Assembly (NCBI RefSeq): GCF_020164585.1
Contig: NZ_JAIQZF010000002.1
Coordinates: 124,001-188,000 of the forward strand
Direction: 5' to 3'
Origin: Psychroflexus curvus
GTDB taxonomy: Bacteria; Bacteroidota; Bacteroidia; Flavobacteriales; Flavobacteriaceae
DNA length: 64,000 nucleotides
Positions 60,037 through 62,761 of this stretch are shown one piece after another. Position numbers and translations under genes: made by a program. The notes beneath the pieces were generated by a model. That model was not told where the DNA came from. It was given only the letters and a program-made list of their open reading frames with translations, and did no database searches. How positions within the stretch are numbered: the stretch's first letter is position 1; each line of letters opens with the position of its first letter.

Positions 60037-60771
60037 ATGAGCAGAACATTAGCAATTGGTGATATACACGGAGGTTTTCGCGCTTTGGAACAGGTTTTGG
60101 AACGTGCAGAAGTAACAAAGGATGACCAGTTGATTTTCCTTGGCGATTATGTTGATGGATGGAGCGGAACCCCCGAGTTGCTGTCGTATCTCATTCAGCT
60201 TAAAGAAGAACAGGAATGCATGTTTATAAGAGGCAATCACGACGATTTAGTACTGGACTGGTTTCGCACCGGCGAGTCCAATCCCAAATGGCTGGAACAC
60301 GGTGGGAAAAGTACGATGAAAGCTTATAAAGAAGTGAGTTCAACTGTTAAGAGTCTGCATCGTCAGTTTTTGGAAAATCTGACGAACTATCATATCGATA
60401 AGCAAAACCGACTGTTTTTACACGCTGGATTTGCCAATCTGCATGGACCCGCAGCAGAGTTTTATCCCAACACCGTGTATTGGGACAGATCGCTTTGGGA
60501 AATGGTGAAAGCCATGGACAAGTCACTTTCTCCTGAGGATGATTTTTATCCAACCAGGCTAAAGCTATTCAACGAAATCTATATCGGTCACACACCGACC
60601 ACCCGCATGGGAAAGACCGAGCCGGTAAACTTAGCCAACGTTTGGAACATCGATACTGGCGCTGCCTTTAAAGGGCCTGTCAGCCTTATTGATGTCGATA
60701 CTAAAAAAGTCTGGCAAAGCGATGCTGTGTATGAATTGTATCCCGATGAATCAGGTCGAAATCAGGATTAG
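60037..60771 (+). CDS. PPP-type metallophosphoesterase / Ser-Thr phosphatase
   Basis: The 244-aa protein has the full PPP set: GDIHGG, GDYVDGW, RGNHDD, HAGF and a late GHTPTTR. It resembles bacterial diadenosine-tetraphosphatase or serine/threonine phosphatases of the PrpA type. The substrate (phosphoprotein, Ap4A or RNA cap) cannot be told. It is coupled to the AlbA_2 gene. Its stop codon shares bases with the convergent dxs stop (TTAG at 60768-60771). Confidence 0.9.
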   Translation: MSRTLAIGDIHGGFRALEQVLERAEVTKDDQLIFLGDYVDGWSGTPELLSYLIQLKEEQECMFIRGNHDDLVLDWFRTGESNPKWLEHGGKSTMKAYKEVSSTVKSLHRQFLENLTNYHIDKQNRLFLHAGFANLHGPAAEFYPNTVYWDRSLWEMVKAMDKSLSPEDDFYPTRLKLFNEIYIGHTPTTRMGKTEPVNLANVWNIDTGAAFKGPVSLIDVDTKKVWQSDAVYELYPDESGRNQD

Positions 60772-62651
60772 TGAAGAATTGAAAGAATCTTTTCTTTAAT
60801 TTTTTCTGAAGAAATGCCTGCGATTTCATATAATTCTTGAGTGTCACCGTGTTCAATAAACTGGTCTGGAATCCCTAGTTTGTGTATTTTACCGGTGTAG
60901 TTTCGAGTTTGAGCAAATTCTAAAACCCCATCGCCAAAGCCACCTTTTACAGTGCCATCTTCAATGGTGATGATATGACTGAATTTTTCAAATATGGACT
61001 GAAGCAGGTCTTCATCCAGAGGTTTCAAAAAACGCAAATCGTAATGAGCTATGCTGAACCCGCCTGCATGATTCAGTCGGGCAGGCCCGCCTGCATGATC
61101 CAGTCGGGCAGGCTTGCCTGCATGATTCAGTCGGGCAGGCTTGCCTGCATGATTCAGTCGGGCAGGCCTGCTACCGATAGCTTCAATGCTTTTAGAGACA
61201 TTGCCTGATATACTTCCCAGGCTTAAGACAGCCAGTTCTTCGCCTTCTAAAAGGCATCTTCCCTTGCCTATGTCCAGCTTTTCGAAAGGCATTTTCCAAT
61301 CTTTAATTTCTCCGCGTCCTCTCGGATAACGGATCGCCATCGGCTGTTGTAAATCCTGAGTGGCAGTATAAAGAAGTTGTCTCAGTTCTATAGCATCTGC
61401 CGGAGCAGCGACGATTAAATTAGGAATACAGCGCAAAAATGCCAGATCAAACACGCCGTGGTGAGTGGCGCCGTCATTGCCTACCAGTCCGGCTCGGTCA
61501 ATGCAAAACACAACTGGCAGGTTTTGTATAGCCACATCATGGATCACCTGGTCGTAGGCGCGTTGCAGAAAGGTGGAATAAATAGCACAAAAGACTTTAT
61601 GGCCCTGAGTGGCCATACCCGCCGCAAGCGTGACGGCGTGCTGTTCGGCAATGCCAACATCAAACGCACGGTCTGGAAATTCGCCCATCATGTATTTTAG
61701 CGAACTTCCGGTGGGCATGGCAGGCGTAATGCCAACGATAGCCTCATCTTTTCGAGCCAGTTCCAGTAAAGTCAGGCCAAACACATCCTGAAACTTGGGA
61801 GCTAAGTCTTTGTTGTTTTTTGGAATGACCTCGCCTGTGAATTTATCAAACTTTCCGGGGGCATGGTATTTCACCTGATCCTCCTCCGCCTGTTTTAAAC
61901 CCTTGCCTTTTTTGGTAATGACATGCAGAAGTTTTGGGCCTTTTTTGGTTTTCAGCTTCTCGAATGCTTTTAAAAGTTCAGGTAAATCGTGCCCGTCGAT
62001 GGGGCCTTCGTAGTGAAAGTTAAGCGCTTCAATGATATTATCCTGAGTCGGTTTTTTACCGATTTTAGCTTTGGTCAGATAGGTTTTAAGAGCGCCAACG
62101 CTGGGGTCAATGCCGATGGCATTATCGTTGAGCACAATCAAAAGGTTAGCTTTGGTCACTCCGGCATGATTCAGGCCTTCAAACGCCATCCCGGAGGCTA
62201 TGGAGGCATCACCAATCACAGCGATGTGTTGTTTGTTGAAATCGCCTTTCAACTGAGAAGAAATAGCCATGCCCAATGCAGCTGAGATGGAGGTGGAGCT
62301 GTGACCGGTACCAAAGGTGTCGTAGATGCTTTCTTCACGTTTTGGAAAACCAGAGATGCCGTTAAGCTTTCTGTTGGTTTCAAAACTATCCCGTCGACCG
62401 GTTAAGATTTTATGACCGTAAGCCTGGTGGCCTACGTCCCAGACCAGCAGGTCTTTTGGAGTTTCAAAGCAGTAGTGAAGGGCAATGGTGAGTTCCACCA
62501 CGCCCAGGCTGGCACCCAGATGGCCTTCCTTGGTCGAAACGATGTCTATGATAAACTCCCTTAGCTCCCGGGCTAATTGCTGCAACTGTTGAGTTTCAAG
62601 CTCACGTAAGTCTTCCGGAGAATTTATGTTGGAAAGCAAATCTAAAGTCAT
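60768..62651 (-). CDS. dxs: 1-deoxy-D-xylulose-5-phosphate synthase with an in-frame repeat insertion
   Basis: The 627-aa thiamine-diphosphate enzyme makes DXP from pyruvate and glyceraldehyde 3-phosphate, the entry step of the MEP isoprenoid path. Seen motifs include WDVGHQAYGHKILTGR, GDASIASGMAFEGLNH, and VGIAEQHAVTLAAGMA with the catalytic glutamate. Flavobacterial Dxs is about 590 aa. The excess is a run of four nine-residue units (consensus ARLNHAGKP, about residues 495-530) between EAIG and FSIAHYDLRF, in the linker between the second and third domains. The rest looks intact, so the enzyme is likely active. TAACTTTG sits at 62656-62663, only 4 bp before the ATG. Confidence 0.95.
   Translation of the reverse strand: MTLDLLSNINSPEDLRELETQQLQQLARELREFIIDIVSTKEGHLGASLGVVELTIALHYCFETPKDLLVWDVGHQAYGHKILTGRRDSFETNRKLNGISGFPKREESIYDTFGTGHSSTSISAALGMAISSQLKGDFNKQHIAVIGDASIASGMAFEGLNHAGVTKANLLIVLNDNAIGIDPSVGALKTYLTKAKIGKKPTQDNIIEALNFHYEGPIDGHDLPELLKAFEKLKTKKGPKLLHVITKKGKGLKQAEEDQVKYHAPGKFDKFTGEVIPKNNKDLAPKFQDVFGLTLLELARKDEAIVGITPAMPTGSSLKYMMGEFPDRAFDVGIAEQHAVTLAAGMATQGHKVFCAIYSTFLQRAYDQVIHDVAIQNLPVVFCIDRAGLVGNDGATHHGVFDLAFLRCIPNLIVAAPADAIELRQLLYTATQDLQQPMAIRYPRGRGEIKDWKMPFEKLDIGKGRCLLEGEELAVLSLGSISGNVSKSIEAIGSRPARLNHAGKPARLNHAGKPARLDHAGGPARLNHAGGFSIAHYDLRFLKPLDEDLLQSIFEKFSHIITIEDGTVKGGFGDGVLEFAQTRNYTGKIHKLGIPDQFIEHGDTQELYEIAGISSEKIKEKILSILH
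61062..61169 (-). repeat. Four tandem 27-bp repeats inside dxs
   Basis: Units start at 61062, 61089, 61116 and 61143. Each begins GCCTGCATGAT and ends with a GGGCAGGC phrase, so each forms a hairpin of GCCTGC with GCAGGC. Units differ by one to three bases. The sequence looks like a REP-type palindrome that entered the gene and expanded in multiples of three. Confidence 0.92.
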
Positions 62652-62655
62652 GAGA

Positions 62656-62663
62656 CAAAGTTA
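62656..62663 (-). promoter_or_regulatory. Possible -7 box directly before dxs
   Basis: The minus strand reads TAACTTTG, an exact TAnnTTTG match, ending 4 bp before the ATG. If used, the transcript would start at or next to the ATG. No TTG is seen at -33, so the match may be chance. Confidence 0.3.
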
Positions 62664-62666
62664 CCA

Positions 62667-62761
62667 ATAGTCTGTGAGTTTTTGAGCGATGAGAGAGAAG
62701 TAAAAGTAAGTAAATTTAAAATCTATAGTCTGTGAGTCTTTGAGTTTTTGAGTGATGAGAG
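62667..62761. repeat. Imperfect direct repeat upstream of dxs
   Basis: A 29-bp phrase starting ATAGTCTGTGAGT at 62667 recurs at 62725-62761 with an 8-bp internal expansion (a repeated GAGTCTTT-like word). Copies are 58 bp apart. No coding potential was found. Confidence 0.65.

Follow-up and report, generated by a model that had tools for sequence, protein, structure and literature searches.

The window, by which we mean the whole stretch of 64,000 nucleotides that was analyzed, carries a dxs gene, encoding 1-deoxy-D-xylulose-5-phosphate synthase, on the reverse strand (positions 60768-62651; 627 aa including an insert). The 627-aa ORF matched the NCBIfam equivalog model TIGR00204 with an E value of 1e-211 and 704.7 bits (cut-off 465.95), identifying it as dxs, and Pfam detected DXP_synthase_N, Transket_pyr and Transketolase_C in the protein. 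Within the gene, TRF reported an array at 61059-61168 with a period of 27, 4.1 copies, 93% matches and a score of 185, which was by a wide margin the top of the 11 TRF rows in the window (runner-up score 59). TRF and a model of the repeat, R1, together delimited a tandem array of four 27-bp units at 61059-61166, corresponding on the reverse strand to Dxs residues 496-531. In the orientation of the element, which here is the forward strand, the units lie at 61059-61085 (unit 1, CCCGCCTGCATGATTCAGTCGGGCAGG; R1 43.7 bits, E 3.1e-8), 61086-61112 (unit 2; 41.5 bits), 61113-61139 (unit 3; 38.5 bits) and 61140-61166 (unit 4; 38.5 bits), the first three being scored by a model in whose training set they were included. 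Aligned by codon on the coding strand, the array reads PARLNHAGK-PARLNHAGK-PARLDHAGG-PARLNHAGG, and the near-identical units differ by a few bases. The flank of the insertion site is at 61050-61058 on the reverse strand, where codon alignments and the sequence itself place TTCAGC directly after the insert. The G+C content is 63% for the array, 47% for dxs and 37% for the window, and the dxs unit can be read without a stop codon in four of six frames, in tandem reading too. TRF, the ORF and R1 all bear out the four in-frame units that a preliminary description of this DNA had noted, and the array is confirmed as real, with exactly 36 added residues (627 aa compared with 591 aa in congeners), matching the excess over an ordinary Dxs of about 590 aa that had been suggested. 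The array had been placed correctly, except that it starts at 61059, three bases before the 61062 given originally.

We then asked where in the protein the insert falls. In two insert-free congeneric Dxs proteins, Pfam matched Transketolase_C at residues 462-582 and 462-581 (profile 1-124 and 1-123), whereas in the Dxs of the window, where Transket_pyr ends at residue 445, the same domain was matched at profile 35-124 only, starting at residue 531. Since Transketolase_C starts at 462 in the insert-free proteins and is matched only from 531 here, the 36-residue insert (496-531) splits domain III, ~34 residues past the start of the domain. Alignments to two solved Dxs structures were interrupted at the insert (query 490 to 535 and 482 to 536), and to judge from the flanking sequence the insertion site looks like a turn between the first helix and the next strand of domain III. 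The linker between domains II and III, where the insert had been assumed to sit, is ruled out by the Pfam control on the insert-free congeners. A PDB search with a 43-residue stretch containing the repeat peptide returned nothing meaningful.

For dxs in relatives, 60 genomes including that of the window (G000) were searched for Dxs, 59 of them matched, and the DNA of 29 relatives was aligned. The unit is absent from dxs in 27 of the 29. A single unit, PARLNHEGE, is present in the congener G001 and a truncated one, ARLDHAGG, in the congener G004, both at the same site, immediately before FS-AH; the site is empty in G024, the sister of G004, and in G008. Among the six empty relatives that are closest, Dxs is 591 aa long in four and 592-593 aa in two. 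The number of units in dxs therefore differs between species (4, 1, a truncated 1 and 0, with one genome per species), and the array is no ordinary insertion of the lineage. In a FastTree phylogeny of three proteins, the history of the site can be written as one gain and two losses or as two gains and one loss, three events each, and two events may suffice should the poorly supported branches (0.42 and 0.71) be incorrect. Repeated gain at the dxs site and an older insertion lost in some species cannot be told apart on this tree. No plasmid copies of the array were found by distant blastn.

The unit is also found well beyond dxs. Its pattern was matched in 11 of the 27 genus genomes (that of the window included) and a second form in 9 of the 27, while a reversed control gave 0 in all. 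R1 was built from 48 genus units, dxs units among them; with up to 150 candidates scored per genome, such that the counts are possibly lower bounds, R1 at E 0.1 gave at least 36 matches in G000, at least 32 in G001 and at least 21 in G024, with matches in at least 15 of the 27 genus genomes, again including G000. If a copy is called extragenic when no ORF of 100 aa or more overlaps it, 22 of the 32 G000 matches that were placed are extragenic and 10 overlap such an ORF: four are the dxs units, four lie one each in other conserved genes, one is N-terminal in an ORF for an S1/P1 nuclease and one is in another ORF, so that 8 of the 10 fall in five conserved genes. Head-to-tail arrays with a 27-bp period occur outside genes as well (8 and 3 units on contig C4 of G001; 2-3 and 2 units on C23 and 2 units on C32 of G000; 2 units on C30 of G024). 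As these extragenic arrays also have a period of 27, the period belongs to the element and not to the reading frame. A short imperfect palindrome with many dispersed, chiefly extragenic copies is what is generally called REP-like, the covariation of the palindrome being modest. We conclude that the dxs array is best explained, on the whole evidence and with a probability of roughly 0.86, as copies of a dispersed 27-bp REP-like palindromic element with the consensus CCCGCCTGAATGAnnnnGTCGGGCAGG. The preliminary description had named one outcome that would speak against a repeat turned into coding sequence, namely the same insertion at fixed length in all relatives with no related repeat elsewhere; the alignment of close relatives and the search outside genes that it proposed gave the opposite on both counts.

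The palindrome was examined by covariation. Pairing of CCCG with CGGG together with an inner CTG with CAG was formed in 85.7% of cells, and its covariation score was reached by 8 of 500 shuffles; in this structure one pair is changed on both sides, which 451 of 500 shuffles also reach. The best-supported stem, 4+3 pairs with a mismatch between them, encloses a loop of ~7 nt, the tail being CAGG, and covariation lends this putative hairpin modest support. The hairpin first proposed for the unit, GCCTGC with GCAGGC, showed no covariation among the 48 family members and was rejected as a conserved structure. Rfam had no match in 60700-62700, and a literature text search for the unit DNA or its peptides found neither in print within the library searched.

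Several other repeats were seen in G000. A 28-nt variant, CCCGCCTGACTGACGCTAGTCGGGCAGG, is repeated on the small contigs C3, C4 and C6 (loci L147-L151), inside longer GACCAG/TTGACC-rich stretches without ORFs, and a 36-bp tandem pair is present at L149:5477-5554, where the adjacent ORFs resemble P-loop ATPases by eye. At 2096-2122 of contig C30 (L096) lies the unit that overlaps the S1/P1 nuclease ORF at its extended N-terminus. The true start of this ORF is probably downstream of the unit, which is likely a leader element.

To compare genes with and without the element, we made codon alignments for a KMO-like FAD monooxygenase, TrpC, a family-2 glycosyltransferase (GT2) and an alpha/beta hydrolase, using 14 genomes fetched for each gene out of 27, 25, 20 and 20 with a match. 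The KMO-like gene has nine extra codons in G000, G024 and G015 (3 of 14), is empty in 10 and is two codons below the empty form in G004, where a deletion is probable. For trpC, nine extra codons were found only in G008, and the other 13 of the 14 are without them. A clear insert in GT2 is present in G000 (1 of 14); the genes of G024 and G004 are of equal length but diverged or decayed, that of G005 has nine residues of unclear origin at the insert site, and the other 10 are short of nine codons or more. The alpha/beta hydrolase has ~18 extra codons in G000, shorter or diverged extras in G004, G005, G017, G021 and G025, and none in eight genomes. The loop of this hydrolase (G000 contig C33, 155882-156709; L157), with extras of varied length in five congeners besides G000, behaves as if it were a hotspot of gain and decay of the element. 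Two further genes in the genus carry a unit: in a short-chain fatty-acid transporter of G000 (contig C30) it lies within SCFA_trans (4-458), and on contig C5 of G001 it is in a small secreted protein.

The empty sites show the joints. Where the unit is missing, the sequence reads TCAAA^TTCAGAA (KMO-like, G008), TCAAT^TTCAGAA (GT2, G001) and GCAAG^TTCAGAA (TrpC, G004), and a target duplication is absent. Some empty sites read GCAGG^TTC, and these could mark places where a unit has been lost, not sites that never had one. In dxs and the six other genes a T(T)C(A/C)G-type sequence lies 3´ of the insert on the coding strand, either directly or, in the hydrolase, after four bases, and the TTCAGC behind the dxs insert resembles the T(T)C(A/C)GAA behind the inserts of other genes. 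In-frame insertion into a conserved gene, the mark of an intragenic element of the type of the Rickettsia palindromic elements (RPE), was found against uninserted orthologues for the KMO-like gene, trpC, GT2, the hydrolase and dxs. dxs is one of five G000 genes found with the element, four of which were compared with orthologues. In dxs a dispersed palindromic element of nine codons, which enters genes without loss of frame, has undergone expansion.

The family is not confined to the genus. In a collection of 84,980 genomes, an exact search for a pattern of 21 fixed bases gave at least 115 stretches with at least 120 units, compared with a chance expectation of ~0.1 for the whole collection if equal base use is assumed. 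By taxonomy, the stretches listed belong to Bacteroidota (at least 84), Planctomycetota (at least 11), Fidelibacterota (at least 10), Elusimicrobiota (at least 3), Chlorobiota (at least 2, from one assembly), Ignavibacteriota (at least 1) and Minisyncoccota (at least 1), with at least 3 unplaced; among the matches listed, the pattern is thus seen in records of at least seven phyla. Many of the unit-bearing records are metagenome-assembled, and the phyla with a single record could be binning errors; for Bacteroidota isolates, Scalindua and Marinimicrobia the unit recurs across several separate records. An even sample of the phylum gave an exact match in 3 of 395 genomes and 2 of 171 genera, as for a patchy family.

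We inspected 22 unit-overlapping ORFs from this search and ran 20 against Pfam (L266 and L294 were left out). For 11 of the 20, the unit falls within the stretch matched by a Pfam domain: GH2, alpha-L-fucosidase, GT9, penicillin amidase, PheT, FAD-dependent oxidoreductase, acyl-CoA dehydrogenase, class II ribonucleotide reductase, TsaD, inositol phosphatase and the Por tail. Two more ORFs, for a proton-pumping NADH dehydrogenase-like protein and RibD, have it between domains; in one (L307) it has an M23 peptidase domain on one side and a match under the cut-off on the other, a weak case that is kept apart; and in six its position is terminal or unsupported. Where the unit is N-terminal (L242, L272, L291, L308 and L096 of G000), the ORF was not counted as an insertion, because the true start may be downstream. 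L320, which has no family, and L322, a repeat protein with the unit close to its end, were not counted either. Eleven of the 14 domain-associated units read RLNDxVGQ or a close form and three read LPDxVxQAG. The closest solved structures of TsaD and acyl-CoA dehydrogenase align with gaps of 12 and 9 residues, respectively, at or beside the unit; for TrpC the best PDB alignment begins just past the unit, which is therefore outside the aligned part. The in-frame units inside PheT (L301), TsaD (L251) and class II ribonucleotide reductase (L339) come from a Bacteroidota, a Paceibacterota and a Chitinophagaceae metagenome-assembled genome, respectively, and the genes for these three proteins are expected to be essential.

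Dispersed palindromes of similar size have been described before. GTAG and CGTC REPs, imperfect hairpins of 20-40 bp that are mostly intergenic with some copies in ORFs, are reported from eight phyla, CGTC repeats also from Bacteroidetes and Chlorobi; where they cluster in ORFs, 43-82 residues may be encoded, some families are nested in other palindromes, and CGTC REPs are presented there as having no known transposase (Di Nocera et al., 2013, PMC3733652). The dxs units might accordingly be members of such a class, either RAYT-mobilized GTAG-REPs or CGTC-REPs, lying in an ORF by chance as in R. conorii (RPE-4, a CGTC-4 REP, and RPE-6, a CGTC-1 REP) or O. terrae. The likeness in behavior, a short imperfect palindrome that is dispersed, mostly extragenic and at times found in ORFs (PMC3733652), speaks for this, as do the CGTCATTC on the reverse strand of the cross-phylum consensus and the Y1-transposase matches in 24 of the 27 genus genomes. 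The terminal tags are another matter. With unit boundaries fixed by the empty sites, GTAG immediately precedes the unit, whichever strand is read, in 0 of the 120 listed exact units and 0 of the 48 genus units; CGTC is there in 1 of the 120 (CCTC in 1, TGTC in 0), and none of the three in the 48. The CGTC of the unit sits within the loop, on the reverse strand of the cross-phylum consensus. The geometry also differs, since the loop of ~7 nt and the stem with a fixed mismatch, itself modestly supported, do not fit the 8-9-bp stem, 4-5-nt loop and CCA-fitting tail of CGTC REPs. Copies of the unit are often head-to-tail, whereas CGTC REPs are described as chiefly head-to-head dimers (PMC3733652), and no association with RAYT genes was seen at the loci examined. 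Compared with the published description of GTAG and CGTC REPs rather than with a consensus of theirs, the 27-bp unit differs in the lack of terminal tags, the head-to-tail arrays and the lack of a RAYT link. On balance we consider membership in one of these classes unlikely, although it is the strongest of the alternatives.

Two other systems invite comparison. Like the 27-bp unit, the RPEs are short dispersed palindromes retained as extra residues within genes of known function, RPE-1 likewise (PMC3733652); unlike the RPEs as they are portrayed there, the unit has no terminal CGTC, has another stem-loop, is exactly nine codons long, forms head-to-tail arrays of codon-sized period and is present in Bacteroidota and in records of at least six other phyla. 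PARCELs (palindromic amphipathic repeat coding elements) share with it coding tandem repeats with dyad symmetry and a sporadic presence in distant taxa; they are described as 25-residue domains in ORFs without assigned function, in contrast to the nine-residue inserts in conserved enzymes seen here (PMC2996958). REPs inside genes are thus a known phenomenon, from which the 27-bp family differs in lacking their terminal tags.

RAYTs were the one kind of mobilizing enzyme sought, and they were rejected as candidates: no association was seen at the RAYT loci of G000 and its relatives or at the unit loci of the cross-phylum search. The unit, allowing 6 mismatches, was absent at 19 RAYT loci (12 of relatives, and 7 more comprising 2 of G000 and 5 of relatives), and a model made from the RAYTs of this genus only found just two RAYT-like ORFs in the 115 listed unit-bearing loci (838 kb), 585 and 2287 bp from the unit. 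The two clear RAYT genes of G000 (contig C30, 18528-18866, L124; contig C23, 219997-220341, L125) are each amid a palindrome family of their own, one a 66-bp-spaced array of CATCAGGCG..CCTGATG and the other TGCGACCCCTGTCGGGGTCGAA, both distinct from the 27-bp unit. With regard to the hosts of the unit, the mean longest complementary run around units was 4.47, compared with 4.07 on permutation (largest permuted mean 4.29), and a complementary run of at least 7 flanked 11 of 117 units, compared with a mean of 2.5% and a maximum of 7.7% in 200 permutations.

We propose the following course of events. A single 27-bp unit was inserted precisely, without target duplication, beside a TTCAG-type sequence, as is shown by empty and filled sites in sister genes and, for dxs, by comparison with the empty congeners. 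The dxs frame stayed open, with a gain of nine residues, because 27 bp are nine codons and four of the six frames are stop-free. Slippage or unequal recombination may then have multiplied the single unit head-to-tail, 27 bp at a time, to the four near-identical units seen here, whereas sister species keep one, a truncated one or none. The array would persist because the turn in domain III tolerates the extra length. As to the mover, joints free of target duplication, the hairpin shape of the element and the mild excess of inverted repeats in the host sequence suggest, as a conjecture, a single-strand route acting in trans, of HUH type or by template switching; precise joints, no duplication and hairpin hosts would fit such a route.

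It could also be supposed that the array is adaptive and tunes Dxs, the first step of the MEP pathway, through its length or through hairpins in the mRNA. The variation of copy number among close relatives agrees with this, and the RNA of the array folds better than 200 shuffles (z -2.83), a figure that concerns folding and is silent on any effect. The element is, however, present in many unrelated proteins, as would be the case for a tolerated passenger, and no trend or assay ties the array to Dxs; we regard an adaptive role as improbable. Least credible of all is an ordinary minisatellite in coding sequence, formed by slippage from a stretch native to dxs and unrelated to any mobile or dispersed repeat, which would account for the head-to-tail, near-identical units of equal length and for the length differences of dxs between species but not for the lack of an ancestral unit there in 27 of the 29 relatives that were aligned, the dozens of matching copies elsewhere in the own and sister genomes or the insertion of the element at unrelated places of other genes.

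Copies of a dispersed palindromic element thus remain the preferred source of the dxs array. The original idea of a REP-like repeat turned into coding sequence is supported by a unit that is dispersed, mostly extragenic and also in dxs, yet it was too narrow, given that more genes are involved and the family crosses phyla. A wider proposal, which we put forward tentatively and with less than even confidence, is that this is a previously undescribed cross-phylum element whose 27-bp size and four stop-free frames would let it enter genes again and again, each time supplying a ready-made nonapeptide (RLNDxVGQ, LPDxVIQAG or PARLxHxGG, depending on frame). It might be moved in trans by a single-strand-acting enzyme favoring hairpins or TTCAG-type targets and be a continuing source of new segments in central enzymes, with dxs as a secondary expansion.

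Rickettsia and some other bacteria are already known to carry selfish palindromes in working genes. What is added here is another element, for which sister species have empty sites and which behaves in the same way in Bacteroidota and records of at least six other phyla, reaching genes as central as dxs, trpC, pheT, tsaD and that of class II ribonucleotide reductase. The dxs array itself is a candidate locus for strain typing. Two questions are made testable by the family, through simple experiments and comparisons: how such an element moves without a known transposase, and how often it supplies proteins with new segments.
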